DNA from: Flavobacterium keumense
Lineage (GTDB): Bacteria; Bacteroidota; Bacteroidia; Flavobacteriales; Flavobacteriaceae
DNA length: 64,000 bases
NCBI RefSeq assembly: GCF_029866485.1
Contig: NZ_CP092332.1
Coordinates: 2,170,001 to 2,234,000 of the forward strand
Direction of reading: 5' to 3'
A program made the position numbers and the translations under genes. Below, piece by piece: positions 21,718 to 59,371 of the stretch. Numbering within the stretch: the first letter of the stretch is position 1; each line of letters starts with the position of its first letter. The notes below the pieces were generated by a model that saw only the letters and a list, made by a program, of their open reading frames with translations, searched no databases and had not been told where the DNA came from.

Positions 21718-22602
21718 TTAAAACTTAAACTGTAATAATATTTCGTTTGTATTTTTCGATCTTGCCAAAGCAGCAATTGTACTCATTTCATAAGCATAAC
21801 CAAATACAAATCTATTACTTACCTTAAGAGTTGTTAATGCAGCATATTTATTATCTGTACTATAATTAGCCCCAATTTCAAACTTATCATTAAAACTGAA
21901 CATGGTTGTTAGATTTAAAATAGATGGAGATTTTTGAATATAATTCCAATTCAATGAAGGCTTTAACATTAAGTTATCGCTAATATCAAAATCCATTCCT
22001 GCCCCAATGTACATTTGAGGTAAATCTGTGTATACCAATGCAACTCCTTCTTTCTCTTTTACTTTTGCTAAATCAAAAACTCTTGGAACTGAAAATGTTG
22101 CATACCAACCTTCTCCTTTAAGTAATGTACCTACTCCAATATTAGGTGAAAATCTACTGATCGATTGAATAGAGGGGTCTACAAATACATTATAGGTATT
22201 TAGACCAGAAAAATTAACCTCATAAAAATCCGCAACAGCCTTTATTCCAAAATACATATCGGTATTTCTTGAAATTTGCAATTTATATGATATATCAAGT
22301 CCAAAAAAACCTTGTTTTTCAATAAATGTTTTATTATTTTCTAAAGAAAGTCCTATTGCCAAATTATTAGCTAAAGGTGTCCCAAAAGAAATATATTGAG
22401 ATTCCGGACCGTTAGGAACACCAGTCCATTGACGTCGCAATGAACTGGTTAGTAACGTTTGCCCATCAACACCTACATAAGCTGGATTAATAATATTCAT
22501 ATGATACCTATAACGTGTGAATATATTTTGCTCCTGTGAATAAATGGCAATACAAAACAGTAAACTTGTTCCTACCAACAAAATATCTTTAATTTTTTTC
22601 AT
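21718..22602 (-). CDS. PorP/SprF-family outer-membrane protein, partner of the 7164-aa adhesin
   Basis: The 294-residue protein has a signal peptide (ILLVGTSLLFCIAIYSQEQ). It then has the PorP/SprF family start (NIFTRYRYHMNIINPAYVGV, SLRRQWTGVPNGPESQYISF). The rest is alternating beta strands ending FVFGYAYEMSTIAALARSKN and a terminal ILLQFKF with an aromatic last residue, as in outer-membrane barrels. Known SprF is needed for secretion or attachment of the SprB adhesin through T9SS. It starts 24 bp after the adhesin stop codon, in the same operon, and is close in sequence to the copy at 44382. I infer it handles the giant protein upstream. Confidence 0.92.
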   Translation of the reverse strand: MKKIKDILLVGTSLLFCIAIYSQEQNIFTRYRYHMNIINPAYVGVDGQTLLTSSLRRQWTGVPNGPESQYISFGTPLANNLAIGLSLENNKTFIEKQGFFGLDISYKLQISRNTDMYFGIKAVADFYEVNFSGLNTYNVFVDPSIQSISRFSPNIGVGTLLKGEGWYATFSVPRVFDLAKVKEKEGVALVYTDLPQMYIGAGMDFDISDNLMLKPSLNWNYIQKSPSILNLTTMFSFNDKFEIGANYSTDNKYAALTTLKVSNRFVFGYAYEMSTIAALARSKNTNEILLQFKF

Positions 22603-22626
22603 TTACTTCTTAGTTAAATTTCATTA

Positions 22627-25600
22627 TTACTTAGTTATATAAAACCATCCTTGTTCATCGATTACATTGTCTCCATCTAAATCGATTTGGTAATAGTAAG
22701 AGCCTACACTAAGTTGAGCTTTCCAATCATTTTTATAATTCACTTGCTCAAATACTTTTTTACCGTTACTGTCAAACACATATACTATTGAATTTGGATA
22801 GTTTTGAATATTTATAATTACCCATTCGTCATTAATTCCATCACCATTTGGAGTAAATACCTGAGATGGATTTATCTCAACTAAATCACAAACATCTCCT
22901 TTTCCATCTCCATCAATATCCTCTTGATTTGGATTAGCTATCAGAGGACAATTATCTTTGGTATCGCTAACACCATCTCCGTCTATATCCGATATTACAG
23001 TTATCTTAATATTAGATATTGCATTACCCCCTGTATTCGTAGCCGTTACTACATAAACGGTAGCAATAACCTCCTCTGTCGGTGTACCTGTAATGGCTCC
23101 CGTAGCGGTGTTCAAGCTCAAGCCTGTTGGTAATGCTGGACTTACTGAATAACTTGTTGGAGTACCTCCTACATTCGTAGGGGCTGCAATAGGGGTAATC
23201 GCTGTACCTTTGGTATAGGTAAACGGTGAACCAATATAAGTCAAGGCTGATGGCGCGATATCATTCACTGTGATACTTAAAGTAGCCGTGGTACTACCTC
23301 CTGTATTAGTAGCCGTAATAGTATACGTAGCTGAAGCAGTTACTGCTGTTGGTGTGCCTGTAATGGCTCCTGTAGCAGTGTTCAAGCTCAAGCCTGCTGG
23401 TAAAGCTGGTGATACTGAATAACTTGTTGGAGTACCTCCTACATTCGTAGGGGCTGCAATAGGGGTAATCGCTGTACCTTTGGTATAGGTAAACGGTGAA
23501 CCTGTGTATGTAAGCGCCGACGGAGCTGGTGTAGAATTAATAACTACAAAAGCAAAAGCTGTTGAACTCACTCCATTATAATTAACATCGGAGGCAACCG
23601 TAACTACTACCTCATATGTACCAATATTTGTTGGTGCTGTAGTACTTGGTCCATAAGAGGTTGCTCCTGTACCCGTATAAGTGTAGGTTACTGTTCCTGT
23701 TGAACCTGTTATTGTAGCCGTAGGAGCTTGTATTGAACCAGTATAAGTAAAACTTGTTCCTGTAAAAGCAACAGTAGTATTGGCTTTACCAATCGTAAAG
23801 GCCAATGTTGGTGAAATAGCTCCTTCATAATCAGCATCAGCAGCCACCGTAGCTACTACCTCATATGTACCAGCGTTTATTGGTGCTATAGTACTTGGTC
23901 CATAAGAGGTTGTACCTGTTCCACTATACACATAAGTCACTGCCCCTGTAGAACCTGTTACTGTAGACGTTGATGGTCCTTGAGGGTTACCTGTATAAGT
24001 AAATACAGTTACGCCTGTTGCGGTAATAGTTGAGTTAGCTCTATTAACGGTGATGTTAATGCTTGCTGTAGTACTACCTCCTGTATTAGTAGCCGTAATA
24101 GTATACGTAGCTGAAGCAGTTACTGCTGTCGGTGTGCCTGTAATGGCTCCTGTAGCAGTATTCAAGCTCAAGCCTGCTGGTAATGCTGGCGATACTGAGT
24201 AGCTTGTTGGAGTACCTCCTGAGTTAGTTGGTGCTGCGATAGCCGTGATAGCAGTGCCTTTGGTATAGGTAAACGGTGAACCGGTGTACACTAAAGTAGT
24301 AGGTGCTGCATCATTAACAGTGATGTTAATAGTCGCTGTAGTACTACCTCCTGTATTAGTAGCCGTAATAGTATACGTAGCCGATGCGGTTACTGCAGTT
24401 GGTGTGCCTGTAATGGCTCCTGTAGCAGTATTCAAGCTCAAGCCTGCTGGTAATGCTGGTGATACTGAGTAGCTTGTTGGAGTACCTCCTGAGTTGGTAG
24501 GTGCTGCGATAGCCGTGATAGCCGTGCCTTTGGTATAGGTAAACGGTGAACCGGTGTACACTAAAGTAGTAGGTGCTGCATCATTAACAGTGATGTTAAT
24601 AGTCGCTGTAGTACTACCTCCTGTATTAGTAGCCGTAATAGTATACGTAGCTGAAGCAGTTACTGCTGTTGGTGTGCCTGTAATGGCTCCTGTAGCGGTG
24701 TTCAAGCTCAAGCCTGCTGGTAAGGCTGGTGATACTGAGTAGCTCACTACTGTTCCACCACCATTAGTTGGTGCTGCAATCGGAGCGATCGCAGTTCCTT
24801 TGGTATAGGTAAACGGTGAACCGGTGTACACTAAAGTAGTAGGTGCTGCATCATTAACAGTGATGTTAATAGTCGCTGTAGTACTACCTCCTGTATTAGT
24901 AGCCGTAATAGTATACGTAGCCGATGCGGTTACTGCAGTTGGTGTGCCTGTAATGGCTCCTGTAGCAGTATTCAAGCTCAAGCCTGCTGGTAATGCTGGT
25001 GATACTGCATAGCTCACTACTGTTCCACCACCATTAGTTGGTGCTGCAATCGGAGCGATCGCAGTTCCTTTGGTATAGGTAAACGGTGAACCGGTGTACA
25101 CTAAAGTAGTAGGTGCTGCATCATTAACAGTGATGTTAATAGTCGCTGTAGTACTACCTCCTGTATTAGTAGCCGTAATAGTATACGTAGCTGAAGCAGT
25201 TACTGCTGTTGGTGTGCCTGTAATGGCTCCTGTAGCAGTGTTCAAGCTCAAGCCTGCTGGTAATGCTGGCGATACTGAGTAGCTCACTACTGTTCCACCA
25301 CCATTCGTAGGGGCTGCAATAGCCGTGATAGCGGTACCCTTGGTATAGGTAAACGGTGAACCGGTGTAGGCTAAAGTAGTAGGTGCTGCATCATTAACAG
25401 TGATGTTAATAGTCGCTGTAGTACTACCTCCTGTATTAGTAGCCGTAATAGTATACGTAGCTGAAGCAGTTACTGCTGTTGGTGTGCCTGTAATGGCTCC
25501 TGTAGCAGTGTTCAAGCTCAAGCCTGCTGGTAATGCTGGCGATACTGAGTAGCTCACTACTGTTCCACCACCATTCGTAGGGGCTGCAATAGCCGTAATA

Positions 25601-28600
25601 GCCGTGCCCTTGGTATAGGTAAACGGTGAACCGGTGTAGGCTAAAGTAGTAGGTGCTGCATCATTAACAGTGATGTTAATGCTGGCTGTTGTGCTTCCAC
25701 CTGTGTTGGTAGCCGTAATCGTGTATGAAGCTGATGCGGTTACTGCAGTTGGTGTTCCTGTAATGGCTCCTGTAGCGGTGTTCAAGCTCAAGCCTGCTGG
25801 TAATGCTGGCGATACTGAGTAGCTCACTACTGTTCCACCACCATTCGTAGGGGCTGCAATAGCCGTAATAGCCGTGCCCTTGGTATAGGTAAACGGTGAA
25901 CCGGTGTAGGCTAAAGTAGTAGGTGCTGCATCATTAACAGTGATGTTAATGCTGGCTGTTGTGCTTCCACCTGTGTTGGTAGCCGTAATCGTGTATGAAG
26001 CTGATGCGGTTACTGCAGTTGGTGTTCCTGTAATGGCTCCTGTAGCGGTGTTCAAGCTCAAGCCTGCTGGTAATGCTGGCGATACTGAGTAGCTTGTTGG
26101 AGTACCTCCTGAGTTGGTAGGTGCTGCAATAGCCGTGATAGCGGTACCCTTGGTATAGGTAAACGGTGAACCGGTGTAGGCTAAAGTAGTAGGTGCTGCA
26201 TCATTAACAGTGATGTTAATAGTCGCTGTAGTACTACCTCCTGTATTAGTAGCCGTAATAGTATACGTAGCTGAAGCAGTTACTGCTGTTGGTGTGCCTG
26301 TAATGGCTCCTGTAGCAGTGTTCAAGCTCAAGCCTGCTGGTAATGCTGGCGATACTGCATAGCTAACTACTGTTCCACCACCATTCGTAGGGGCTGCAAT
26401 AGCCGTAATAGCCGTGCCTTTGGTATAGGTAAACGGTGAACCGGTGTACGTAAGCGCCGATGGGGCGATATCTTTAACAGTGATGTTAATAGTCGCTGTA
26501 GTACTACCTCCTGTATTAGTAGCCGTAATAGTATACGTAGCCGATGCGGTTACTGCAGTTGGTGTTCCTGTAATGGCTCCTGTAGCGGTGTTCAAGCTCA
26601 AGCCTGCTGGTAATGCTGGCGATACTGAGTAGCTCACTACTGCTCCACCACCATTAGTTGGTGCTGCGATAGCCGTGATAGCCGTGCCTTTGGTATAGGT
26701 AAACGGTGAACCTGTGTAGGCTAAAGTAGTAGGTGCTGCATCATTCACAGTGATACTTAAAGTAGTCGTGGTGCTGCCTCCTGTATTAGTAGCCGTAATG
26801 GTATACGTAGCCGATGCGGTTACTGCAGTTGGTGTGCCTGTAATGGCTCCTGTAGCAGTGTTCAAGCTCAAGCCTGCTGGTAATGCTGGTGATACGGCAT
26901 AGCTAACTACTGTTCCACCACCATTAGTTGGTGCTGCAATCGGAGCGATCGCAGTTCCTTTGGTATAGGTGAACGGTGAACCGGTGTAGGCTAAAGTAGT
27001 AGGTGCAATGTCATTAACAGTGATGTTAATAGTCGCTGTAGTACTACCTCCTGTATTAGTAGCCGTAATGGTATACGTAGCTGAAGCAGTTACTGCTGTT
27101 GGTGTGCCTGTAATGGCTCCTGTAGCAGTGTTCAAGCTCAAGCCTGCTGGTAATGCTGGTGATACTGAGTAGCTCACTACTGCTCCACCACCATTAGTTG
27201 GTGCTGCGATAGCCGTGATAGCCGTGCCTTTGGTATAGGTAAACGGTGAACCTGTGTAGGCTAAAGTAGTAGGTGCTGCATCATTCACAGTGATACTTAA
27301 AGTAGTCGTGGTGCTGCCTCCTGTATTAGTAGCCGTAATGGTATACGTAGCCGATGCGGTTACTGCAGTTGGTGTGCCTGTAATGGCTCCTGTAGCAGTA
27401 TTCAAGCTCAAGCCTGCTGGTAATGCTGGTGATACTGAGTAGCTCACTACTGCTCCACCACCATTAGTTGGTGCTGCGATAGCCGTGATAGCCGTGCCTT
27501 TGGTATAGGTAAACGGTGAACCGGTGTACACTAAAGTAGTAGGTGCTGCATCATTAACAGTGATGTTAATAGTCGCTGTAGTACTACCTCCTGTATTAGT
27601 AGCCGTAATAGTATACGTAGCCGATGCGGTTACTGCAGTTGGTGTGCCTGTAATGGCTCCTGTAGCAGTATTCAAGCTCAAGCCTGCTGGTAATGCTGGT
27701 GATACTGAGTAGCTTGTTGGAGTACCTCCTGAGTTGGTAGGTGCTGCGATAGCCGTGATAGCCGTGCCTTTGGTATAGGTAAACGGTGAACCGGTGTACA
27801 CTAAAGTAGTAGGTGCTGCATCATTAACAGTGATGTTAATAGTCGCTGTAGTACTACCTCCTGTATTAGTAGCCGTAATAGTATACGTAGCTGAAGCAGT
27901 TACTGCTGTTGGTGTGCCTGTAATGGCTCCTGTAGCGGTGTTCAAGCTCAAGCCTGCTGGTAAGGCTGGTGATACTGAGTAGCTCACTACTGTTCCACCA
28001 CCATTAGTTGGTGCTGCAATCGGAGCGATCGCAGTTCCTTTGGTATAGGTAAACGGTGAACCGGTGTAGGCTAAAGTAGTAGGTGCTGCATCATTAACAG
28101 TGATGTTAATGCTGGCTGTTGTGCTTCCACCTGTGTTGGTAGCCGTAATCGTGTATGAAGCTGATGCGGTTACTGCAGTTGGTGTTCCTGTAATGGCTCC
28201 TGTAGCGGTGTTCAAGCTCAAGCCTGCTGGTAATGCTGGCGATACTGAGTAGCTCACTACTGTTCCACCACCATTCGTAGGGGCTGCAATAGCCGTAATA
28301 GCCGTGCCCTTGGTATAGGTAAACGGTGAACCGGTGTACACTAAAGTAGTAGGTGCTGCATCATTAACAGTGATGTTAATAGTCGCTGTAGTACTACCTC
28401 CTGTATTAGTAGCCGTAATAGTATACGTAGCCGATGCGGTTACTGCAGTTGGTGTTCCTGTAATGGCTCCTGTAGCGGTGTTCAAGCTCAAGCCTGCTGG
28501 TAATGCTGGCGATACTGAGTAGCTCACTACTGTTCCACCACCATTCGTAGGGGCTGCAATAGCCGTGATAGCGGTACCCTTGGTATAGGTAAACGGTGAA

Positions 28601-31600
28601 CCGGTGTAGGCTAAAGTAGTAGGTGCTGCATCATTAACAGTGATGTTAATAGTCGCTGTAGTACTACCTCCTGTATTAGTAGCCGTAATAGTATACGTAG
28701 CTGAAGCAGTTACTGCTGTTGGTGTGCCTGTAATGGCTCCTGTAGCAGTGTTCAAGCTCAAGCCTGCTGGTAATGCTGGCGATACTGAGTAGCTCACTAC
28801 TGTTCCACCACCATTCGTAGGGGCTGCAATAGCCGTAATAGCCGTGCCCTTGGTATAGGTAAACGGTGAACCGGTGTAGGCTAAAGTAGTAGGTGCTGCA
28901 TCATTAACAGTGATGTTAATGCTGGCTGTTGTGCTTCCACCTGTGTTGGTAGCCGTAATCGTGTATGAAGCTGATGCGGTTACTGCAGTTGGTGTTCCTG
29001 TAATGGCTCCTGTAGCGGTGTTCAAGCTCAAGCCTGCTGGTAATGCTGGCGATACTGAGTAGCTCACTACTGTTCCACCACCATTCGTAGGGGCTGCAAT
29101 AGCCGTAATAGCCGTGCCCTTGGTATAGGTAAACGGTGAACCGGTGTAGGCTAAAGTAGTAGGTGCTGCATCATTAACAGTGATGTTAATGCTGGCTGTT
29201 GTGCTTCCACCTGTGTTGGTAGCCGTAATCGTGTATGAAGCTGATGCGGTTACTGCTGTTGGTGTGCCTGTAATGGCTCCTGTAGCAGTGTTCAAGCTCA
29301 AGCCTGCTGGTAATGCTGGCGATACTGAGTAGCTCACTACTGTTCCACCACCATTCGTAGGGGCTGCAATAGCCGTGATAGCGGTACCCTTGGTATAGGT
29401 AAACGGTGAACCGGTGTAGGCTAAAGTAGTAGGTGCTGCATCATTAACAGTGATGTTAATAGTCGCTGTAGTACTACCTCCTGTATTAGTAGCCGTAATG
29501 GTATACGTAGCTGAAGCAGTTACTGCTGTTGGTGTGCCTGTAATGGCTCCTGTAGCAGTGTTCAAGCTCAAGCCTGCTGGTAATGCTGGCGATACTGAGT
29601 AGCTCACTACTGTTCCACCACCATTCGTAGGGGCTGCAATAGCCGTAATAGCCGTGCCCTTGGTATAGGTAAACGGTGAACCGGTGTAGGCTAAAGTAGT
29701 AGGTGCTGCATCATTAACAGTGATGTTAATAGTCGCTGTAGTACTACCTCCTGTATTAGTAGCCGTAATAGTATACGTAGCTGAAGCAGTTACTGCTGTT
29801 GGTGTGCCTGTAATGGCTCCTGTAGCAGTGTTCAAGCTCAAGCCTGCTGGTAATGCTGGCGATACTGAGTAGCTTGTTGGAGTACCTCCTGAGTTGGTAG
29901 GTGCTGCAATAGCCGTAATAGCCGTGCCTTTGGTATAGGTAAACGGTGAACCTGTGTACACTAAAGTAGTAGGTGCTGCATCATTAACAGTGATGTTAAT
30001 AGTCGCTGTAGTACTACCTCCTGTATTAGTAGCCGTAATAGTATACGTAGCTGAAGCAGTTACTGCTGTTGGTGTGCCTGTAATGGCTCCTGTAGCAGTG
30101 TTCAAGCTCAAGCCTGCTGGTAATGCTGGCGATACTGAGTAGCTTGTTGGAGTACCTCCTGAGTTAGTTGGTGCTGCAATAGCCGTAATAGCCGTGCCTT
30201 TGGTATAGGTGAACGGTGAACCTGTGTACACTAAAGTAGATGGCGCAACATCATTAACAGTGATGTTAATGCTGGCTGTTGTGCTTCCACCTGTGTTGGT
30301 AGCCGTAATCGTGTATGAAGCTGATGTAGCTAACGCGCTCGGTGTTCCTGTAATGGCTCCTGTAGCGGTGTTCAAGCTCAAGCCTGCTGGTAAGGCTGGT
30401 GATACTGAGTAGCTTGTTGGAGTACCTCCTGAGTTGGTAGGTGCTGCGATAGCCGTGATAGCGGTACCCTTGGTATAGGTAAACGGTGAACCGGTGTAGG
30501 CTAAAGTAGTAGGTGCTGCATCATTCACAGTGATACTTAAAGTAGTCGTGGTGCTGCCTCCTGTATTAGTAGCCGTAATAGTATACGTAGCTGAAGCAGT
30601 TACTGCTGTTGGTGTGCCTGTAATGGCTCCTGTAGCAGTATTCAAGCTCAAGCCTGCTGGTAATGCTGGTGATACTGAGTAGCTTGTTGGAGTACCTCCT
30701 GAGTTGGTAGGTGCTGCGATAGCCGTGATAGCGGTACCCTTGGTATAGGTAAACGGTGAACCGGTGTACACTAAAGTAGTAGGTGCTGCATCATTAACAG
30801 TGATGTTAATAGTCGCTGTAGTACTACCTCCTGTATTAGTAGCCGTAATAGTATACGTAGCTGAAGCAGTTACTGCTGTTGGTGTGCCTGTAATGGCTCC
30901 TGTAGCGGTGTTCAAGCTCAAGCCTGCTGGTAAGGCTGGTGATACTGAGTAGCTCACTACTGTTCCACCACCATTAGTTGGTGCTGCAATCGGAGCGATC
31001 GCAGTTCCTTTGGTATAGGTAAACGGTGAACCGGTGTACACTAAAGTAGTAGGTGCTGCATCATTAACAGTGATGTTAATAGTCGCTGTAGTACTACCTC
31101 CTGTATTAGTAGCCGTAATAGTATACGTAGCCGATGCGGTTACTGCAGTTGGTGTGCCTGTAATGGCTCCTGTAGCAGTATTCAAGCTCAAGCCTGCTGG
31201 TAATGCTGGTGATACTGCATAGCTCACTACTGTTCCACCACCATTAGTTGGTGCTGCAATCGGAGCGATCGCAGTTCCTTTGGTATAGGTAAACGGTGAA
31301 CCGGTGTACACTAAAGTAGTAGGTGCTGCATCATTAACAGTGATGTTAATAGTCGCTGTAGTACTACCTCCTGTATTAGTAGCCGTAATAGTATACGTAG
31401 CTGAAGCAGTTACTGCTGTTGGTGTGCCTGTAATGGCTCCTGTAGCAGTGTTCAAGCTCAAGCCTGCTGGTAATGCTGGCGATACTGAGTAGCTCACTAC
31501 TGTTCCACCACCATTCGTAGGGGCTGCAATAGCCGTGATAGCGGTACCCTTGGTATAGGTAAACGGTGAACCGGTGTAGGCTAAAGTAGTAGGTGCTGCA

Positions 31601-45260: not shown

Positions 45261-45273
45261 TTAATTTAATTAA

Positions 45274-48200: not shown

Positions 48201-51200
48201 TCAAGCCTGCTGGTAATGCTGGGCTTACGGCATAGCTTGTTGGAGTACCTCCTGAGTTGGTAGGTGCTGCGATAGCCGTGATAGCCGTGCCTTTGGTATA
48301 GGTAAACGGTGAACCGGTGTACGTTAAAGTAGTAGGTGCAATGTCATTAACTGTGATGTTAATAGTTGCTGTAGTACTACCTCCTGTATTAGTAGCCGTA
48401 ATGGTATACGTAGCTGAAGCAGTTACTGCAGTTGGTGTGCCTGTAATGGCTCCTGTAGCAGTGTTCAAGCTCAAGCCGGTTGGTAATGCTGGTGATACTG
48501 AGTAGCTCACTACTGTTCCACCACCATTGGTTGGTGCTGCGATAGCCGTGATAGCGGTACCCTTGGTATAGGTAAACGGTGAACCAGTGTAGGCTAAAGT
48601 AGTAGGTGCTGCATCATTCACAGTGATGTTAATAGTTGCTGTAGTACTACCTCCTGTATTAGTAGCCGTAATAGTATACGTAGCTGAAGCAGTTACTGCC
48701 GTTGGTGTGCCTGTAATGGCTCCTGTAGCAGTGTTCAAGCTCAAGCCTGCTGGTAATGCTGGTGATACGGCATAGCTTGTTGGAGTACCTCCTGAGTTAG
48801 TTGGTGCTGCGATAGCCGTGATAGCCGTGCCTTTGGTATAAGCAGATGGTGATACATAGCGGATAACTGGCACTGCATCATTTACCGCAACACTTAATGT
48901 AGTTGTAAAGCTACCTAATCCATTAGTTGCCGTAATCGTGTAAGAAGCTGAAGCTGTTATCGCCGTTGGTGTGCCTGTAATGGCTCCCGTAGCGGTATTC
49001 AAGCTCAAGCCTGCTGGTAATGCAGGTGATACAGAGTAACTTACTACCTGTCCTCCTGTACTTACTGGATTTAAAGCAGAAATAGCGGTACCGACTGTGT
49101 AGGCACTAGGTGATGTATAACTTACATTTGGTGTAACAGAATAATATGACCCTTGATTTGACTCTAACAAAGTTCTACTAACCGTGCTTGGGAATGCTAT
49201 AAATTCAGAAATAGTTCCATTCAATGGAAATGTTCCTCCTGGTGCGTTAAATAATGTAATATTGTTACTAGAACCTGTGGCTGTGCTAGCAGAAGAACTA
49301 GCTATTTGAGTTCCATTTGAATATAGCAAACCTGACGGAAAAACTGCTGAATAGATTCTTAAGTTTGATGTTGCTTCTGATGCTGAAGTAGAAATAACAG
49401 TTGCTCCATTAGCCAAAGCTTCAAAATTATCACTAGGATTCAATCTAAAATAAGACAATGGTCCTGCTTGTTGCATAAATGCAGAGTATGTTGAGGAAGC
49501 CGTCCCCGAACGACCTATTATACTTACTTGATTCATCGTTACAGGAGAACTAGGCGTTACATCTAATCTTGTGAATGAAGCAACAGATGAAAGTATACTC
49601 GGTCTATTATTCACCTTTATTACTGCTCCTAATGCTGCAATTTGAGGTTGACTTGATAAGGTAGTATTGCGAAGATGATTACCGTAACCACTTTGATCAT
49701 ACCAGGTATCAACATAACCACTTCCATTTCCTAAATTTACAAAAGATACTAATGAAGCCTCATCTAAATTATCTCCAACAAAACCAATATCAAGTGTGTT
49801 GTTCAAACTATTACGTACTTTAATTGCACTACCAGTATAAGAAGAACTAAGTTTACGTAAAGAATAGGCTAAACTTGCAAATACTTGTGACGTATTTATA
49901 CCAATTTTGTCAAGCACAAATCCTCTAACTTCAATAGTAATATTAGCCGTAGTGCTACCTAATCCATTAGTTGCCGTAATAATGTAAGAAGCTGAAGCTG
50001 TTATCGCCGTTGGTGTGCCTGTAATGGCTCCCGTAGCGGTATTCAAGCTCAAGCCTGCTGGTAATGCAGGTGATACAGAGTAACTTACTACCTGTCCTCC
50101 TGTACTTACTGGATTTAAAGCAGAAATAGCGGTACCGACTGTGTAGGCACTAGGTGATGTATAACTTACATTTGGTGTAACAGAATAATATGACCCCTGA
50201 TTTGACTCTAACAAAGTTCTACTAACCGTGCTTGGGAATGCTATAAATTCAGAAATAGTTCCATTCAATGGAAAAGTTCCACCTGGTGCGTTAAATAATG
50301 TAATATTGTTACTAGAACCTGTCGCTGTGCTAGCAGAAGAACTAGCTATTTGTGTTCCATTTGAATATAGTAAACCTGTCGGAAAAACTGCTGAATAGAT
50401 TCTTAAGTTTGATGTTGCTTCTGATGCTGAAGTAGAAATAACAGTAGCTCCATTAGCTAAAGCTTCAAAATTATCACTAGGATTCAATCTAAAATAGGAC
50501 AATGGTCCTGCTTGTTGCATGAATGCAGAGTATGTTGAGGAAGCCGTCCCCGAACGACCTACTATACTTACTTGATTCATCGTTACAGGTGATACAGGCG
50601 ATACATCTAATCTTGTGAAAGAAGCAACAGATGAAAGTATACTCGGTCTATTATTCATCTTTATTACTGCTCCTGATGCTGCAATTTGTGGTTGGCTTGA
50701 TAAAGTAGTATTGCTTAGATGATTACCATAACCACTTTGATCATACCAGGTATCAACATAACCATTACCATTTCCTAAATTTACAAAAGATACTAATGAA
50801 GCCTCATCTAAATTATCTCCAACAAAACCAATATCAAGTGTGTTGTTCAAACTATTACGTACTTTAATTGCACTACCAGTATAAGAAGAACTAAGTTTAC
50901 GCAAAGAATAGGCTAAACTTGCTTTTACTGGTGATGAGTTTAGCCCAATTTTATCTAATACAATGGCACCAATTTCAATGTTGATATTAGCTGTGGCACT
51001 TCCTCCTGTATTAATTGCTGTAATCGTGTAAGATGTTGAAGCTGTTACTGCAGTCGGAGTTCCTGTAATAGCACCTGTAGCTGTATTCAAGCTTAAACCT
51101 GCTGGCAAGCTTGGACTTACTGAATAACTTGTAGGTGTACCTCCACCATTGGTAGGGGCTGCAATCGCGGTAATAGCAGTTCCTTTACCAAAAAGGAAGA

Positions 51201-52455
51201 CAGAACCAGAATAAGTCAATGCAGAGGGCGCAATATCATTAACCGTGATGTTTATACTCGATGTTGAACTTCCTAAACTATTAGAAGCAGTTATAGTATA
51301 ATTTGAGGATGGTGATATTAAAGTTGGAGTACCTGTAATAGCACCAGTTGTTGTATTCAATACTAATCCTGCTGGTAAACTTGGGCTAACGGAGTAACTA
51401 ATTGCAGTAGCTCCACTGTTTGAAGGTAATAGAGCTGGAATAGTACTACCTTTAGTAAAAGTAGCTGACGAAATATAGTTGATAAAAGGCCATATTAAAT
51501 AATATAAACCCTGGTCAATTTCTAAAGTGTGTCTAAAATCTGATGATAAAATTTGAGAAAAAACAATAGACTCACTAATAAAACCTTCACTCGCAAAAGT
51601 TTGCATGGAACTATTATTATCAAATGCTCCAATAGTAAATCTACTTGATGGGTTAAATATATAATCCGTTTCTCCTACAGTAATTATGGACTGACTACCG
51701 TTTAAAAATAATTTTGTTAAATTAGAATTAACCCCAGAAGCCTCTTGTGTTAAGGATACTACATTAAGACTATTTGCTGTAACACTAGAGCTAGAAGTCA
51801 GGTTAATAACATTTCTTTTAGAAGCAATTAGGTTTCCACCAAGTCCAATTCTAATGCCAATACCATTTCCTGAGCCTAAATGAGAAACACCTAAGTTACT
51901 TGTAGATAAATTATCTATTCCAGCAACATTAACCATACTTGCTGGTAAACCGATTGAAAAATTTAAATTTTGAAGGAAGGTCAAAACTGATAGAGGAAAA
52001 AATACAACTGGCTTTCCTGATCTTACAATCAAACTTCCATTATTAATAATTTGAGGTTGATTTAAAGTAGTGGGTTGAATAACGTTTCTACCGTTACCAC
52101 TTTGATCATACCATATCGCCAAAGTTGCGTTTGTAGAACCTGATAAAATTGAGCTTAATACATTAACGCCATTAACACCAGTAGAGCTAGCATTAATTGT
52201 ACTATAAGATGCTGAAATTGGTGAAGATAAAGATATAGTTTTAGAAGTAGTAGCATCCGGATAAACATCAAAATAATTAGTACCAATTGTTATTCTTACT
52301 AATGGTCCACTATATGAATTACTAAGTTTCCTTAAAGAATAAGCAGCAGCAGAAGGTGCAGCAGAGGTTAAACCTGCTAAATCAAGTGCATTTTGTGAGT
52401 AACTAAATACACTTATAAAAATAATAAAAAAAATCTTTTTTCTAATAAAAAACAT
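45274..52455 (-). CDS. T9SS-exported repeat adhesin, 2393 aa (paralogue of the giant adhesin)
   Basis: A signal peptide covers residues 1-21. GH54-like modules follow at about 22-325 (AYSLRKLSNSYSGPLVRI, IWYDQSGNGRN), 500-760 and 845-1110. The first is the phylogenetic match of module 5 of the giant protein and the others of module 4. Then come 12 Ig-like 90-residue repeats (about 1195-2268), a thrombospondin-type-3 segment (DRDGINDTDDNCPFISNSNQ) and a T9SS type B domain (AFTPNGDGVNDYWVI ... GWIYIAN). It has no MBG domains. Its repeats are largely the same cassettes as those of the 7164-aa protein, in places identical in DNA. Exported surface adhesin, role inferred. Confidence 0.9.
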   Translation of the reverse strand: MFFIRKKIFFIIFISVFSYSQNALDLAGLTSAAPSAAAYSLRKLSNSYSGPLVRITIGTNYFDVYPDATTSKTISLSSPISASYSTINASSTGVNGVNVLSSILSGSTNATLAIWYDQSGNGRNVIQPTTLNQPQIINNGSLIVRSGKPVVFFPLSVLTFLQNLNFSIGLPASMVNVAGIDNLSTSNLGVSHLGSGNGIGIRIGLGGNLIASKRNVINLTSSSSVTANSLNVVSLTQEASGVNSNLTKLFLNGSQSIITVGETDYIFNPSSRFTIGAFDNNSSMQTFASEGFISESIVFSQILSSDFRHTLEIDQGLYYLIWPFINYISSATFTKGSTIPALLPSNSGATAISYSVSPSLPAGLVLNTTTGAITGTPTLISPSSNYTITASNSLGSSTSSINITVNDIAPSALTYSGSVFLFGKGTAITAIAAPTNGGGTPTSYSVSPSLPAGLSLNTATGAITGTPTAVTASTSYTITAINTGGSATANINIEIGAIVLDKIGLNSSPVKASLAYSLRKLSSSYTGSAIKVRNSLNNTLDIGFVGDNLDEASLVSFVNLGNGNGYVDTWYDQSGYGNHLSNTTLSSQPQIAASGAVIKMNNRPSILSSVASFTRLDVSPVSPVTMNQVSIVGRSGTASSTYSAFMQQAGPLSYFRLNPSDNFEALANGATVISTSASEATSNLRIYSAVFPTGLLYSNGTQIASSSASTATGSSNNITLFNAPGGTFPLNGTISEFIAFPSTVSRTLLESNQGSYYSVTPNVSYTSPSAYTVGTAISALNPVSTGGQVVSYSVSPALPAGLSLNTATGAITGTPTAITASASYIITATNGLGSTTANITIEVRGFVLDKIGINTSQVFASLAYSLRKLSSSYTGSAIKVRNSLNNTLDIGFVGDNLDEASLVSFVNLGNGSGYVDTWYDQSGYGNHLRNTTLSSQPQIAALGAVIKVNNRPSILSSVASFTRLDVTPSSPVTMNQVSIIGRSGTASSTYSAFMQQAGPLSYFRLNPSDNFEALANGATVISTSASEATSNLRIYSAVFPSGLLYSNGTQIASSSASTATGSSNNITLFNAPGGTFPLNGTISEFIAFPSTVSRTLLESNQGSYYSVTPNVSYTSPSAYTVGTAISALNPVSTGGQVVSYSVSPALPAGLSLNTATGAITGTPTAITASASYTITATNGLGSFTTTLSVAVNDAVPVIRYVSPSAYTKGTAITAIAAPTNSGGTPTSYAVSPALPAGLSLNTATGAITGTPTAVTASATYTITATNTGGSTTATINITVNDAAPTTLAYTGSPFTYTKGTAITAIAAPTNGGGTVVSYSVSPALPTGLSLNTATGAITGTPTAVTASATYTITATNTGGSTTATINITVNDIAPTTLTYTGSPFTYTKGTAITAIAAPTNSGGTPTSYAVSPALPAGLSLNTATGAITGTPTAVTASATYTITATNTGGSTTATINITVNDAAPTTLVYTGSPFTYTKGTAITAIAAPTNGGGAVVSYSVSPALPAGLSLNTATGAITGTPTAVTASATYTITATNTGGSTTATINITVKDIAPSALTYTGSPFTYTKGTAITAIAAPTNGGGTVVSYAVSPALPAGLSLNTATGAITGTPTAVTASATYTITATNTGGSTTATINITVNDAAPTTLAYTGSPFTYTKGTAITAIAAPTNGGGTVVSYSVSPALPAGLSLNTATGAITGTPTAVTASATYTITATNTGGSTTATINITVNDAAPTTLAYTGSPFTYTKGTAITAIAAPTNSGGTPTSYAVSPALPAGLSLNTATGAITGTPTAVTASATYTITATNTGGSTTATINITVNDAAPTTLAYTGSPFTYTKGTAITAIAAPTNSGGTPTSYAVSPALPAGLSLNTATGAITGTPTAVTASATYTITATNTGGSTTATINITVNDAAPTTLAYTGSPFTYTKGTAITAIAAPTNSGGTPTSYSVSPALPAGLSLNTATGAITGTPTAVTASATYTITATNTGGSTTATINITVNDAAPTTLAYTGSPFTYTKGTAITAIAAPTNSGGTPTSYAVSPALPAGLSLNTATGAITGTPTAVTASATYTITATNTGGSTTATINITVNDIAPTTLTYIGSPFTYTKGTAITAIAAPTNGGGTVVSYSVSPALPAGLSLNTTTGAITGTPTAVVSTIFVITATNSAGSTFAVINISVKDIAPSALTYIGSPFTYTKGTAITAIAAPTNSGGIPTSYAVSPALPAGLNLNTTTGEITGIPLMSATAFNYTIKASNSGGSTISIINIKVESQLEDTDRDGINDTDDNCPFISNSNQKDSNANGIGDVCDTTELNLSQAFTPNGDGVNDYWVIDTIENYPNSRVYVFDSKGNKIFEAKNYQNNWQPQLKSGSYYFQIDLNGDAVVDAQGWIYIAN
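45650..48870 (-). repeat. Array of 12 exact-period 270-bp repeats in the second adhesin
   Basis: Landmarks recur at 270-bp multiples (for example over 46157-48317). The end units are diverged, while the inner ones match the giant gene's cassettes. Confidence 0.95.
50177..51228 (-). repeat. Module block shared with the giant adhesin (38711-39762)
   Basis: Second copy of the near-identical 1.05-kb block. A more diverged third copy is adjacent at about 49140-49930. Confidence 0.9.
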
Positions 52456-52925: not shown

Positions 52926-53918
52926 CTAATTTTTAGGACAAGTGAAGCATTTAGTATATAAATCAAATCGATACAATACTGAAAGTTCATATACTCCTCC
53001 TGTGCTTACTCCTTTTAACGAATTAAAATCATAGGAGTAACCAAATTGTAAATGTTCATAATTTAATCCTCCAAACAAACTATACGAATTAAACGTAGTT
53101 TTTCCCCCTGAAGAATCTTGTAGATTTGAATTCGCGCTAATCCCGAAAAAATAATTAGAATAAACTAATGCTCCTCCGAAATCAATTCGTCTAAAATTGC
53201 CTTGCTTTATGTAGTTTGAAGTCAATCGTAGTTTTGTTTCATAAGGAAAAGAAATAATATCAACATAATCAGCTATAGTAAATTGATATCCTACATTGAC
53301 AGAAAAAAACATATCTAATGGAACATTACCATTGGATAGCACTGAAACGTTTGGTTTATTAATGTGCTTTAAAGAAGTCCCGATGAAAAAGTTTTCATTG
53401 TTTAAAAGCATTCCCGTAGAAAAATCAAAATAATTGATTTTTTCATTAAAACTTGAAAACTCAGATGAATTTTGATTAATTACACCATTCGAAATATCAA
53501 TTTGGTCTTCTAAGACAATCCCGTTCGAATTAAATCCTCGTGAACCATATCCAATAGCAATAGAGGGATGAAAAATCCAATCCTCTGTCAGTTGCACCTT
53601 ATAAGCATAATTCATATCCACTTTGGTGAAATTATAATTCGTGAAATTTTGTCTTTGATTAATTATACTAATACCTATTCCACTATTAATTCTGTCACTC
53701 CAAGTATTTATAAATGCAAATTCCGAATCTAATTGCAAATTCAAATTTGGCCATTGTGTTCTATGCAACAACCCCACACTGTTAGATTCTGACAACCCTG
53801 TAAAAGCAGGATTCAATGTTTCTGGGAACAAAAAACTTTGGGTAAACAAAGGATCTTGAGCCATTGCCGTACAGGTAGACATAATTAAAAAAAAGAGTGT
53901 TATAATAATTCGAATCAT
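52926..53918 (-). CDS. PorP/SprF-family outer-membrane protein, partner of the 1671-aa protein
   Basis: The 330-residue protein has a signal peptide (IIITLFFLIMSTCTAMAQ), then DPLFTQSFLFPETLNPAFTG and LLHRTQWPNLN, the family's N-P-A-[FY] and RxQW positions. It ends LQFGYSYDFNSLKGVSTGGV, YELSVLYRFDLY and a short Cys-containing tail (KCFTCPKN). It is clearly more distant from the other two PorP copies, in line with its different partner. It starts 3 bp after the partner's stop codon, so the pair is translationally close and surely one transcript. Likely needed for export or surface attachment of the 1671-aa protein through T9SS. Confidence 0.9.
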   Translation of the reverse strand: MIRIIITLFFLIMSTCTAMAQDPLFTQSFLFPETLNPAFTGLSESNSVGLLHRTQWPNLNLQLDSEFAFINTWSDRINSGIGISIINQRQNFTNYNFTKVDMNYAYKVQLTEDWIFHPSIAIGYGSRGFNSNGIVLEDQIDISNGVINQNSSEFSSFNEKINYFDFSTGMLLNNENFFIGTSLKHINKPNVSVLSNGNVPLDMFFSVNVGYQFTIADYVDIISFPYETKLRLTSNYIKQGNFRRIDFGGALVYSNYFFGISANSNLQDSSGGKTTFNSYSLFGGLNYEHLQFGYSYDFNSLKGVSTGGVYELSVLYRFDLYTKCFTCPKN

Positions 53919-53921
53919 TTG

Positions 53922-56900
53922 CTATCGTGCTAAAATAAATGGACCACTAAACTCTTTTACATCTCCATAAAAAGTTGTAGCAACTACTTTATAATAATAA
54001 TTACCACTTTCTACAAAACGATTATTGATTTCCCCTGTCCATCCTTGTAATGAAGTTCCTTCTTCAGAATATAACAAACCTCCCCAAGTGTTAAATACTT
54101 CCATTTTAATAGTACTCAACCCTTTAAAAACAGGCCTAAAAGTGTCATTTAATTTATTATTGTTGGGCGAGAATGCATTAGGAACAACAACTTCATAGCC
54201 TTTATCAACTTTAATGGTTGTAGTGTAGGAATAATTACATCCAAAAGGATAGTCTACTATTTGCGTTATAGTATAACTACCTTCTTTTAAATAGCTATGT
54301 GATGGACTTATTTCAGTAGATACGCTACCGTCTCCAAAATCCCAAGCAACAGATTCAAAATCTCCTGAAGAGTTATTTACAAACTCAATTGGGTCTTTGA
54401 TAGAATATATTCCATAAGTTGACAGTCCTATTGAATTAGTAGTAAAATTAGGATAACCCAAGATTGGAATTTTTACATTTAAACTATAATTAGATTCACA
54501 TCCTAAACCATCTTGTACTTTTAAAACTACTATTCCATTTTGATTGGTAGTCATAATTTCATTATTCAATCCACTTACTTCACCACTCAACCAATTGTAT
54601 TTGTAAGGAGCTATACCTCCAGAAGTCTGTGCAACAAATGTTTGTTTAACAAATCGTGTCTCACAATCAAATTCATTATTGGTTTGTACTTTTATAACAA
54701 TTGGGTCTTGCCTCGTAACACTATAGGATTCTTGCTTCACACATCCCCTACTATCCGTTACAGTTATACTATAATTTCCTGCTGACAAAGCTGATACATC
54801 TTCGGTTTTGGCTCCATTAGACCATTGGTATGAAAAAGGTGCAGTACCTCCTGCTACTAACAAATTAATAGAACCGCTATTAGCATTGGTACAATCAAAT
54901 GCATCAATAGTGTTTGCTGTCAAAACTAATTCTTGTGGGTCTACCAAAAGAAATGTTTTAGTAAGGGTACATTTACTTCCATCTGTAACCGATACTTTAT
55001 AGATGCCGGGTTTTAAATTATTCCTGTCTTTGCCTGCTAAAGGGCTATCTTCCCAAACTAATTGTATTGGGGCTTGTCCTCCTATAATAGCTACAGTGAT
55101 ACTACCATTATTAGCCCCGTGACAACTTATTTCTTTAACTGCTGTATCTATCCTGAATAACGGAGGTTCAGGAATAGTAATGGTAACATTCTTTATACAG
55201 TTTTTACTATCGGTAACACTTACCTGATACTCCCCTGCAGCAAGATTGTCTTGAGAGACCCCTCCTCCCAAATTACTCCAAGAAGTTTGATAAGGAGCTG
55301 TTCCTCCTGTAATATTTAATGCAATAGACGCATCATTTGCTCCTGAACATTTTATAGGAGAAGTAACCACATTAACTTTAATCTCTGGATTAACAACTAC
55401 TGTAACTTTAAAGTCAGCCCCTATACAACCATTTGCATTTGGTGTTACAGTATAAACCGCATTAGCTGTACTTAATCCAGAATTAATTAAATTTTGTTGA
55501 AAATTTTCTTGTCCAATTGATTCTGTCTGAGCGCCTGTAATATTAATGCTATTTATTTGAGGATAGGTCCAAGTATACGTTGTACCTGATGGAATGACAT
55601 TTCCTGAACTCTCTGATGGAATAACCAAAATCTTTTCTCCACTACAACTAAAGGTTTCTATTGAACCAATGATTGGATAAGTACTCACAGTTATTTGAGC
55701 GGTATTAGATGTAATTTCATTGCACCCGCTATCTAGAAAAGAAATAACACAATAGTAATACTTCTTACTTAAAACATTAGATGGGGGTATAAAATTCGAA
55801 TTGGTTGCTCCAGCAATTAGTATTCCTGACACATTAGAATCTATAGTATTAGAATACCACTGGTACTGAGGTGTACCTGCTCCATTACTGTAGCTAACTT
55901 TCAAATCTTTAGCAATTGCATCTAAACAAACTCCATCAGAAAGTGGCTGTTCTGAAATTGTTGGGGGCAATACAATTTCAACTTTAGCCGGTTGTGAAAT
56001 CACTTCACATCCTTTATTAATTTGAGTAATTGTACAATAGTAGTAAGATTCTCCTACTTCTAAAGTTGGGGGTGTGTAACTCTCAAACTCTTCGAAAGGG
56101 ATCTTTCTTGCACCGGTTATAGTATTAGTCGTATTTTTATACCATTGGTATTGGTAACTCGTTCCAGCCCCTCCACTAACACTAACTTTTAGTTCATGAG
56201 CGCTTGTATCTCTACATAAAGTTTGAGCCAGCATGGGCTGATTTGTAACGGATATGTTATCTACAACAATAACTTCAGCTGGATTACTTTTAGCAATGCC
56301 ACAACCACTGCTACTTAATGAAATAACAGCATAGTAATAGTACTTGCCTACTGTAGTAAAAGCAGGAGGTGTATAACTTAATGATGTGGCAGAAGAAATA
56401 AGTGTTCCTCCTGTATTACTACTAACAGTATTGATATACCATTCATATTTAGGGGTACCTGCTCCTCCATTATAATCTACTACCAATGGGTCGATTGTCC
56501 CACCCAAACAAACTGTTTGACTTGCCTGAGGGTTCTTTTTTATAGTTACTAAAGCATTTACATAAAAAGTTTTGCTTGATTGACAACCCTTGTTATCAGT
56601 GTATATTATGTCTGTATGTCCTACAGCAACGCTGTTTATAAACCCTGAATCAGAAATAGTAGCCACCGAAGTATCTGTAGAAGCCCAAGGCGCAACTAAG
56701 GCATTGACCGGATTAGTTTGTAACTGAACAGCTGTGCCTCCTAAACACATTTCTAAATCTCCTGTAATAGTTGTGATAGGATTGACAATAACTTCAACAG
56801 GTTTAATTAAGGAACATCCTGTGAGTTTATGAGTAGCTTTTATATAATATGTCCCTGAAACTGAAATTTGGTATGGTTTAACTAAAGAACTTGTTGCATT

Positions 56901-58937
56901 ATTATCTGTCCAATACGTATAGTCCAAATTGGATTCAGAGCCTGTTGTCACTGAAGCATCTAATAAATCGACAACTTTAGGAGCACAAACAGGTGTTGGA
57001 TTTTTCACTACAAATCTTGGCAAAGGAGCTATAGTTATCTCTCTATTTTCCGCTACTGTAATTCCACATTCATTTGTTATTGACAAAGAAATAGTATGGG
57101 TCCCTGGAAGATAACTTACCGTTGGACTTTCATCAGTTGAAGTAGCTGGTGTTCCTCCTGGAAAACTCCAAGCATAGGTTACGTTTCCTGTTGATGCACA
57201 ATTCTTTATTGTAGCGGTAGGATGAACTACACTAACAGCTCCTTCTTTTTCTTGACAAATAGAAGCTATAGAATTGATTATTACTTCCGCCCTTTTATTT
57301 ACTTTAACTTCCTGTGATGAAGAAGTAACTGAACCACAAACGTTAATTGCCGAAAGTTGTATAGTGTAAATACCAGAATTTTCAAAATGAAAAGAAGGGT
57401 GTATTGATTTATTATCAGTAGAATTTGTATAAGCCCACCCAGGGGTGTCTATACTACAAATTCCGCTTGTATAGGATACTGTCCATAAATAAGAAGGGAC
57501 AGCTGCTATATTCGTATTTATAGTAGCATTAGTTGCGTTTATAGCTAATGGACTACATCCAACAGTTGTGTCTAAAGAAAAACTAGGAACCAAAGGAGCA
57601 TCAACGGTAATGGTTGTAGTCGTCTCTGAAACACCACATCGATTACCAACACGCATTTTTATAGTATAAGTCCCTGCAACGGTAAATGTTGGGCAAATGA
57701 TAGCACTTCCCTTATCCCATAAACCTATCGAATTAGAACCATAATCTTTCCCGAGTATACTACCTGAGGGTAATGTAAATCCAGTTGAGGGTGTTATGAC
57801 CCAAACAGTTGCAGGGGTTGAGTTACAAGAAGCATTCCCGCTAGCTACTTCAACTGAACCTGTTGACGAATTTTGAATGCACACAGTACTATTTAAACAA
57901 CTATTTAAAGGTGCAGTAATTGCTGCTTTGGGAGGAGAGGAAACAAAAATAGGCCCCACACTAACCACAGCAGTACCACAAGGGTTAATAGCCTTTACAG
58001 TACCCGAAAAAGAATTAGAAATTGAAGACGATCCACTTACATAAGTATAACCACAAGAATTTTTATCAAATTTATGCGTGATTTGAGCAGGCAAGTTAGC
58101 TTGCGTATAACGTTCGGCATCAGTACCATCACTAAAACTAACCTCATAGGTTGTTCCGGGAGGATTATTTGTAGTACCAGACAAAGGAAACGACAATGTT
58201 TCCCCTACACAAATATCAGCATTTAAAGCTGCAGTAAATCCTACAGCAGGATTACTGCCTAAAAAAACCTTATATGTTTGCGTTGCGGTACATCCAGCGC
58301 TATTAGTTACAGTATAAATCAATGTATAATAACCCACATTATAGGTGTGCTTTTTAGAAGTCCAAGAATTTAACGTTTCTGTTGTTCCGTCTCCCCAATC
58401 AATTGTGTAAGATGTATTAGTACTTGTAGTTGTGGATGCATTAACAAATTCAAATTCAGAGGCAGAGTTGCCACAAATTTTGAATACTGTATTTCCATCA
58501 AACTCAAACTTTCCGGTACCGTTTATCTGAGTGTTTGGATAGGGCGTAGTATTGACAGTTACATTAACAGATTCATTTATTAAAGTAACTATTCCAGTGG
58601 CATCTTTATAAGAAATTAAGTTGTAAATAAAAGTACCTGCAGTAGTTGTAGGAACTTCTATTTTGGCAGTATTTTTGTCAGAAGATAGTACCATAGAGTC
58701 TCCTCCATTAACGTTATAAACAAAATCACAGGCGGTGGTACTTGTAGAAGCTGTAAAAGTAATTACGGGTTTAGGAGCATTTAAACAAACTGAATTAGTA
58801 GATATAGTTATAGGAGATACTGAAGTAGGTAATTGATTTAAATTATATAAAATACGAGGAACATTATATTCAAAAGCATATATTACTTGAGCTATAAATA
58901 AAAAAATCAAAATAAAACTTATACTCTTTTTATTCAT
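53922..58937 (-). CDS. T9SS-exported PKD/Ig/SprB-repeat surface protein, 1671 aa
   Basis: The signal peptide (ISFILIFLFIAQVIYAFEY) is followed by PKD-type domains (IDWGDGTTETLNSWTSKKHTY near residue 180; several more to about 640). Four Ig-like units follow, with YEWYINT/YQWYKNT/YQWYSNT and YYYxVIS motifs (about 780-1130). Three or four SprB repeats come next (IKCSGANDASIALNITGGTA, ISCHGANNGSITVAIIGGQA, FDCTNANSGSINLLVAGGTA). A last PKD domain (VAWDFGDGSVSTEISPSHSY) and the gliding-motility-associated/T9SS type B C-terminus (VPNAFSPNNNKLNDTFRPVF ... GPFILAR) close the chain. It lies 23 bp after the receiver-like gene and 3 bp before porP. It is probably an SprB-like adhesin. The name SprB itself is not assigned. 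Confidence 0.9.
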   Translation of the reverse strand: MNKKSISFILIFLFIAQVIYAFEYNVPRILYNLNQLPTSVSPITISTNSVCLNAPKPVITFTASTSTTACDFVYNVNGGDSMVLSSDKNTAKIEVPTTTAGTFIYNLISYKDATGIVTLINESVNVTVNTTPYPNTQINGTGKFEFDGNTVFKICGNSASEFEFVNASTTTSTNTSYTIDWGDGTTETLNSWTSKKHTYNVGYYTLIYTVTNSAGCTATQTYKVFLGSNPAVGFTAALNADICVGETLSFPLSGTTNNPPGTTYEVSFSDGTDAERYTQANLPAQITHKFDKNSCGYTYVSGSSSISNSFSGTVKAINPCGTAVVSVGPIFVSSPPKAAITAPLNSCLNSTVCIQNSSTGSVEVASGNASCNSTPATVWVITPSTGFTLPSGSILGKDYGSNSIGLWDKGSAIICPTFTVAGTYTIKMRVGNRCGVSETTTTITVDAPLVPSFSLDTTVGCSPLAINATNATINTNIAAVPSYLWTVSYTSGICSIDTPGWAYTNSTDNKSIHPSFHFENSGIYTIQLSAINVCGSVTSSSQEVKVNKRAEVIINSIASICQEKEGAVSVVHPTATIKNCASTGNVTYAWSFPGGTPATSTDESPTVSYLPGTHTISLSITNECGITVAENREITIAPLPRFVVKNPTPVCAPKVVDLLDASVTTGSESNLDYTYWTDNNATSSLVKPYQISVSGTYYIKATHKLTGCSLIKPVEVIVNPITTITGDLEMCLGGTAVQLQTNPVNALVAPWASTDTSVATISDSGFINSVAVGHTDIIYTDNKGCQSSKTFYVNALVTIKKNPQASQTVCLGGTIDPLVVDYNGGAGTPKYEWYINTVSSNTGGTLISSATSLSYTPPAFTTVGKYYYYAVISLSSSGCGIAKSNPAEVIVVDNISVTNQPMLAQTLCRDTSAHELKVSVSGGAGTSYQYQWYKNTTNTITGARKIPFEEFESYTPPTLEVGESYYYCTITQINKGCEVISQPAKVEIVLPPTISEQPLSDGVCLDAIAKDLKVSYSNGAGTPQYQWYSNTIDSNVSGILIAGATNSNFIPPSNVLSKKYYYCVISFLDSGCNEITSNTAQITVSTYPIIGSIETFSCSGEKILVIPSESSGNVIPSGTTYTWTYPQINSINITGAQTESIGQENFQQNLINSGLSTANAVYTVTPNANGCIGADFKVTVVVNPEIKVNVVTSPIKCSGANDASIALNITGGTAPYQTSWSNLGGGVSQDNLAAGEYQVSVTDSKNCIKNVTITIPEPPLFRIDTAVKEISCHGANNGSITVAIIGGQAPIQLVWEDSPLAGKDRNNLKPGIYKVSVTDGSKCTLTKTFLLVDPQELVLTANTIDAFDCTNANSGSINLLVAGGTAPFSYQWSNGAKTEDVSALSAGNYSITVTDSRGCVKQESYSVTRQDPIVIKVQTNNEFDCETRFVKQTFVAQTSGGIAPYKYNWLSGEVSGLNNEIMTTNQNGIVVLKVQDGLGCESNYSLNVKIPILGYPNFTTNSIGLSTYGIYSIKDPIEFVNNSSGDFESVAWDFGDGSVSTEISPSHSYLKEGSYTITQIVDYPFGCNYSYTTTIKVDKGYEVVVPNAFSPNNNKLNDTFRPVFKGLSTIKMEVFNTWGGLLYSEEGTSLQGWTGEINNRFVESGNYYYKVVATTFYGDVKEFSGPFILAR

Positions 58938-58960
58938 AGTACAACGAATACTTTAAAGTT

Positions 58961-59323: not shown

Positions 59324-59371
59324 AATACTAAACTTTAATTTTAAAACGTTAATCCAAAAAATCCTTTATAT

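Follow-up and report, generated by a model that had tools for sequence, protein, structure and literature searches.

In Flavobacterium johnsoniae, SprB/SprF and other pairs of a type B C-terminal domain (CTD) protein with a PorP/SprF protein consist of a giant repetitive secreted protein with a type B tail and of a PorP/SprF gene directly downstream, according to the available portions of two reports (PMC12618676; PMC9143113). The same portions describe orphan tails together with one orphan shuttle, and pairs with as well as without a PorE gene. In P. gingivalis, a PorP family protein is likewise paired with a type B CTD protein in the PorP-PorE-PG1035 group (available text of PMC9143113). Here we describe three adhesin-PorP/SprF pairs of Flavobacterium keumense that lie in a window of 64,000 nucleotides (positions 2,170,001-2,234,000 of the single-contig 2.54-Mb genome) and are predicted to depend on the type IX secretion system (T9SS). 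The arrangement is a well-preserved example of the published kind, and the sharper statement concerns what pairs with what. The locus differs from the F. johnsoniae pairs in that adhesins 1 and 2 have bodies built of He_PIG arrays.

All three pairs lie on the minus strand, and the PorP/SprF genes follow their adhesin genes after 24, 13 and 3 bp, respectively. Adhesin 1 (22627..44121, 7164 aa) starts with a segment that resembles a signal peptide by eye, carries 270-bp repeats with 58 He_PIG-type motifs, a TSP3 stretch and a CHU_C type B tail, and is followed by PorP1 (21718..22602, 294 aa; PF11751, E 1.4e-48). Adhesin 2 (45274..52455, 2393 aa) contains the repeat type of adhesin 1 (16 motifs) and a CHU_C type B tail, and is followed by PorP2 (44382..45260, 292 aa; E 5.3e-46). 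Adhesin 3 (53922..58937, 1671 aa) carries PKD and SprB repeats in front of its CHU_C type B tail and is followed by PorP3 (52926..53918, 330 aa; E 4.5e-38). The PF11751 matches exceed the curated cut-off in all three PorPs and place them in the PorP/SprF family, and TIGR03519 (curated cut-off 90.55) matches PorP2 (164.1 bits) and PorP3 (186.2 bits) only. The PF13585 (CHU_C) matches stop 2 residues before the end of adhesins 1 and 2 and 19 before the end of adhesin 3, and a C-terminal CHU_C domain of this kind marks T9SS type B substrates. By analogy with the described systems, T9SS- and PorP/SprF-dependent secretion of the three adhesins is predicted. A PDB sequence search with PorP2 and PorP3 gave no match at E<=0.01. 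PorP1 and PorP2 are 59% identical, whereas PorP3 shares 17% and 21% with them; the corresponding values are 63% for tails 1 and 2, and 19% and 21% for tail 3. The preliminary description of this DNA, with three giant type B adhesins each followed on one strand by its own PorP/SprF gene, two pairs being close and one distant, was borne out in these respects. PorP3 has an 89% identical paralogue beside a paralogue of adhesin 3 in a second locus, L007 (G000:108-120 kb, where G000 denotes the genome under study and L-numbers denote loci).

The genome holds 12 PorP genes and 17 CHU_C tails. Since 11 of the 12 PorP genes lie directly behind a CHU_C gene, the adjacency of adhesin and PorP is not due to chance; six CHU_C genes have no PorP behind them. 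The wider census covered these 12 genes and the regions fetched for 101 of the 106 PorP matches in 15 same-genus relatives, with five fragmentary or weak matches and the matches of nine more distant genomes left aside. A tail lies directly upstream of 91 of the 113 PorP matches in these 16 genomes, and for three of the 22 tail-less ones a nearby contig end leaves the upstream side barely or not visible. Four short matches were dropped from the 91, leaving 87 adhesin-PorP pairs. Contigs of named genomes were searched for relatives of PorP1 and PorP2; PorP2 alone as the query found no relative, and a five-sequence alignment gave 29 matches, the nearest from Flavobacterium, followed by Arenibacter, Maribacter, Cellulophaga and others. 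A tail was found upstream in 23 of the 23 close matches and in one of the four distant ones, two partial matches being left unscanned. The He_PIG motif was not found in the stretches examined of the 23 close relatives (up to 6 kb upstream). Six PorPs with long C-terminal extensions were also noted, namely L006:15672-17792 (G000 ~749.6-751.7 kb) and those of L086, L088, L090, L091 and L092; their open frames range from 707 to 1581 aa and all six stand behind a CHU_C gene. Three of them were scanned (L092 in part) and contained no Pfam family at cut-off except PorP.

A comparison of PorP and adhesin trees, which the preliminary description had proposed as a check, revealed that the two histories largely match, with some conflicts. 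The distances between PorPs and between tails were correlated over the 87 pairs (rho 0.87; permuted maximum 0.21). At a support of at least 80, 29 splits are shared by both trees (of 61 PorP and 53 tail splits; permuted maximum 2), and at a support of at least 95, 15 are shared (of 40 and 21). PorP1 and PorP2 are sisters (support 99), as are tails 1 and 2 (89), and the same is true for PorP3 and its L007 paralogue (100) and for their tails (99).

Here, we need to consider that these trees could match merely through operon neighbourhood, without functional matching, for the window genes are 3-24 bp apart and neighbours are inherited together regardless of function. Since adjacent genes co-inherit anyway, a control was made with the adhesin body, taken as the 300 aa preceding the tail, which is about equally linked to PorP (81 of the 87 pairs were long enough). 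The BLAST-score correlation over these 81 pairs was 0.86 between PorP and tail but 0.31 between PorP and body. Among 259 locus pairs with a PorP identity of 50-65%, body similarity was absent (normalised score under 0.1) in 61%, while tail similarity was absent in none; even at a PorP identity of at least 80% (31 locus pairs), 10% had no body similarity. L022 and L023, which belong to one genome, have PorPs of 87.5% and tails of 70% identity with no detectable body similarity, a pattern that reads as a clear case of body exchange. In addition, five orphan tails unlinked to any PorP form one class whose nearest paired tail stands beside a member of an orphan-PorP clade (see below), and dependence of adhesins on their shuttles was seen in published secretion tests, as far as the available text goes. 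Neighbourhood as the whole explanation is thus quite improbable.

The window itself provides a second line of evidence. Adhesin 1 contains 270-bp He_PIG-type tandem arrays of 39.6 and 10.8 copies and adhesin 2 contains one of 12.2 copies, and both proteins also hold longer non-tandem blocks resembling LamG by eye. The two bodies have exact blocks of 992 and 938 bp in common, while the last 330 nt of the adhesin genes are 72% identical and the porP genes 69%. Arrays of this kind are difficult to assemble, and the near-identical blocks might be suspected as an assembly artefact; however, the genome is one contig of 98.6% completeness and the exact 938-bp block lies outside the detected tandem arrays, so that we regard an artefact as very unlikely. 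In adhesin 2, the best-match identity drops (96% to 73%) at about 730 nt from the gene end, a distance near the length quoted for the type B signal (up to 235 aa in the accessible part of PMC12618676). A simpler reading of this drop is that the exchange between adhesins 1 and 2 stops where the repeats end. Based on the weaker correlation of the body with PorP, and on the exact blocks shared by adhesins whose tails and porP genes differ by about 30%, our comparison suggests that the co-inherited unit is the C-terminal tail with its shuttle, rather than the whole adhesin.

The preliminary description had suggested, from the paired duplication of adhesin and porP and with SprB/SprF biology in support, that each porin is dedicated to its own adhesin. 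Dedicated PorP/SprF shuttles have been demonstrated in F. johnsoniae (available text of PMC12618676), and the matching trees agree with the suggestion; however, the partner appears to be the C-terminal signal more than the body, and strict one-to-one use is doubtful. According to the same text, F. johnsoniae tails that are 68% identical share one shuttle, while tails that are 43% identical do not. Tails 1 and 2 (63%) fall between these cases, and the tails of pair 3 and its paralogue are 89% identical, which makes strict one-to-one use doubtful for pairs 1 and 2 as well as for pair 3 and its paralogue. By analogy, pairs 1 and 2 may be able to stand in for each other in part, and pair 3 should be interchangeable with its paralogue. 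It is also conceivable that one shared PorP, for example PorP1, serves adhesins 1 and 2 alike and that the second is redundant, as the identities of the tails and of PorP1 and PorP2 and the F. johnsoniae thresholds would allow. Both porP genes nevertheless have open reading frames and have each stayed immediately downstream of their own adhesin gene, and the pairs are sisters in both trees. We consider a single shared shuttle a serious contender, with a chance somewhat below even, and prefer two matched pairs with partial cross-talk.

The rule of one porin per adhesin is further weakened by the six tails without a PorP of their own. One of them, at 736569 (4222-aa frame), shares 81% identity with the tail of the next downstream pair, and because of this likeness it likely uses the shuttle of that pair. 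The other five orphan tails are 44-57% identical among themselves and form one class. The lone PorP of this genome (G000:296217) belongs to a clade of 17 members (support 100), which occurs in 16 of the 16 same-genus genomes examined. In this clade, 14 members have no tail upstream, two (L094 and L111) have an upstream side that is barely or not covered, and one (L069, in genome G001) has a tail. Of all paired tails, that of L069 comes closest to four of the five orphan tails (45-54%) and is tied at 46% for the fifth; the next-closest paired tails, of the L003 type (35-46%), have PorPs of their own. Since the sole tail beside the orphan-shuttle clade is thus the closest to the orphans, sequence similarity links the five orphan tails to the orphan shuttle PorP. 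This would parallel F. johnsoniae, in which the orphan shuttle Fjoh_1677 serves three orphan tails more than 44% identical to one another (PMC12618676, in the text available).

A PorE gene has been proposed to distinguish static type B pairs, which have it, from mobile ones, which do not (available text of PMC9143113 and PMC12618676). We searched for PorE with a profile made from eight PorE-like proteins (OmpA and PD40 present in 5 of the 5 scanned), which a very divergent PorE could escape. A PorE gene was found close behind 55 of 109 PorPs, and its distribution takes 3 changes on the PorP tree, compared with at least 27 in 500 shuffles. In the genome under study, two of the 12 PorPs are followed by a PorE gene. 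The profile found none behind any of the three window PorPs, in which they differ from the P. gingivalis group, and none behind the 23 close named relatives of PorP1 and PorP2. GldJ and GldB, the only gld/spr products searched for, are present above cut-off. Because the window PorPs fall in the PorE-less part of the family and the genome keeps GldJ and GldB, the better bet, by analogy, is that the three adhesins are mobile and moved by the gliding machinery, rather than fixed to the cell wall.

In the explanation that we favour, the adhesins would be exported via the Sec system and then the T9SS, where the PorP/SprF protein encoded just behind each adhesin would take the C-terminal type B signal from the translocon and subsequently hold the adhesin at the surface. 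Signal and shuttle would form a heritable recognition unit, and the repeat body could be exchanged or homogenised by recombination without breaking the match. The adhesins with their PorE-less PorPs would then be moved by the gliding machinery. The gene anatomy, the co-inheritance, the exchange of bodies and the distribution of PorE come from the sequences themselves; for the shuttle mechanism, mobility and cross-talk, F. johnsoniae serves as the model. We put the probability of this reading as a whole, with a dedicated tail-shuttle unit, an exchangeable body, mobile adhesins and partial cross-talk, at about 0.83. Several observations weigh against it. First, at a support of at least 80, 22 of the 61 PorP splits and 18 of the 53 tail splits are in conflict, and six of these conflicts have window-type rows on the smaller side, some in deeper splits; at a support of at least 95, the conflicts amount to 6 of 40 and 3 of 21, none of which has window-type rows on the smaller side. 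Therefore, some re-pairing has occurred or the short tail gives a weak tree signal. Second, the nearest neighbours of PorP and tail agree in just 52 of the 87 pairs. Third, the lower correlation between PorP and body may come partly from faster evolution of the body. Finally, the branch that gathers all PorE-linked PorPs has a support of 12 and contains two PorE-less PorPs. If the favoured explanation holds, a pairing rule that has so far rested on a few F. johnsoniae constructs gains genus-wide support from sequences only, and the rule attaches to the tail more than to the adhesin. Further predictions concern the shuttle that each orphan adhesin uses, the pairs that cross-talk, and whether an adhesin is mobile (no PorE) or static (PorE).

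Three small genes precede pair 3 on the same strand, encoding proteins of 304 aa (59644..60558), 81 aa (59372..59617) and 120 aa (58961..59323). The 304-aa protein has a signal-peptide-like start, and its model shows an N-terminal beta-sandwich and a helical C-terminal part with no firm PDB match (best E 5e-3 over 91 columns). The genes named in the preliminary description are all present, but the 304-aa protein has no Pfam or NCBIfam match and its label "DUF4369-like" is unconfirmed; relatives occur in 4 of 199 genomes, its own included. The 81-aa protein belongs to a family without assignment, with relatives in 14 of 397 same-genus genomes including its own. It was considered as an adhesin-specific protein and rejected, since 14 short loci (~3 kb) have no neighbours tagged as PorP, CTD or the 120-aa family.

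The distant copy of pair 3 in L007 shows a similar arrangement. The adhesin and PorP are 87% identical in nucleotides to pair 3 over 5882 columns including PorP3, and upstream of them lie genes of 77 and 118 aa, whose products share 47% with the 81-aa protein and 39% with the 120-aa protein. A 304-aa gene on the opposite strand is 39% identical to its window counterpart. The small genes are far less alike than the adhesin-PorP part, and therefore either they evolve faster or the adhesin-PorP part has been homogenised. The adhesin of L007 is split into open reading frames (ORFs) of 551 and 1086 aa (L007:5187-10194), and for this reason could represent a disrupted copy. About 37 kb past adhesin 3, at G000:2265863-2283458 (L008, L014), lies another giant adhesin (5551-aa frame) with a PorP, related to pair 3. 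Upstream of it are aldehyde dehydrogenase-like and rhodanese-like genes (by eye), as upstream of the adhesin of genome G009 (L115), and based on these shared neighbours this could be the group's older locus.

The 120-aa protein is a stand-alone degenerate receiver of a widespread unnamed family. Judged from the strands of its model, Tyr57 occupies the phospho-acceptor position (end of beta-3) and Asp100 the Lys position (end of beta-5), and the acceptor Asp and the Lys of a phosphorylatable receiver are thus missing. Among 39 aligned members, the acceptor position is Tyr in 31 and Asp in none, the Lys position is Asp in 38, and there is no output domain, in which the family differs from two-component receiver domains including T9SS PorX. 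We read 40 neighbourhoods of relatives, mostly the best-scoring among the matches listed, and 38 of them gave an ORF; of the eight sequences that made up the search profile, two were taken from loci beside PorE-like genes. A strict link to adhesins was rejected, as a CTD or PorP gene lies within four ORFs in 9 of the 38. A PorP was found within 5 kb in 7 of the 38, again among the matches listed, where the PorP density of the 16 genomes would predict about 0.7; several adhesin-linked loci look orthologous rather than independent. The window gene and its paralogue stand directly upstream of an adhesin-PorP pair, and some relatives elsewhere in Flavobacterium follow adhesin-PorP-PorE genes. Most other loci have no PorP or CTD gene in the stretch, and many of those listed are near sensor kinases or regulators (by eye). 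In a second class of relatives (L178, L179, L193, L195, L197), the gene is flanked by that of a LuxR-type regulator (by eye) on one side and that of a conserved ~504-aa protein on the other; most of these loci are near large secreted surface proteins. It is a tentative and rather unlikely idea that the family consists of non-phosphorylatable receivers, some of which regulate T9SS adhesin loci locally or serve them as adaptors; if true, it would add a phosphorylation-independent receiver switch to adhesin display in Bacteroidota, beside PorX/PorY.

Further upstream and on the same strand are a REC-AraC response regulator (60966..61724), probably a separate transcription unit, and a TPR histidine kinase (HisKA_2/HATPase; 61733..63676). 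A 45-aa signal-peptide-like ORF (63678-63815, minus strand) stops directly ahead of the kinase ORF in a different frame, which would fit a frame change in the kinase gene or an internal start that leaves out its signal. The genes from the 304-aa gene through PorP3 could be one transcript, since their intergenic gaps are 3-48 bp. The three pairs, the three small genes and the kinase and regulator might even form one regulated island, in view of their common strand, these short gaps, and the counterparts of the small genes beside the distant pair-3 paralogue. This is improbable, because the units are separated by 260, 407 and 470 bp, a terminator-like site (60936-60922) follows the regulator, the 12 kb examined around the distant paralogue showed no kinase, and kinase neighbours are not conserved in related loci. 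Such terminator-like sites are no commoner than in shuffled sequence (9 vs 8.9 in 44000-61200), and promoter-like sites number 75 vs 70.2. A -33/-7 motif, which we take to be the Bacteroidetes-type promoter consensus, was seen 169 bp ahead of the 304-aa gene, and a second one 212 bp ahead of the regulator; these are weak evidence, since the chance of one in a 300-bp stretch is about 9% and 5%, respectively. Nine pair-3-type loci were read upstream by eye, and a two-component system is nearby in two, the window and L121 (genome G012), where a different TPR kinase/regulator pair adjoins a related adhesin. No adjoining two-component system was seen upstream in L007, L115, L116, L118, L119, L120 and L008/L014, and L117 ends at the contig start. 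The regulatory coupling of the adhesins to the neighbouring kinase, as assumed in the preliminary description, is therefore only a guess, because the regulator is 407 bp away from the 304-aa gene with a terminator-like site between and such neighbours are not conserved. The small-RNA candidate also announced there found no counterpart in Rfam, which gave nothing at E<=1 in 18000-64000. At curated cut-offs, the sole Rfam match in the whole window is a tmRNA at 15596-15992 with the tag GEGNYALAA.

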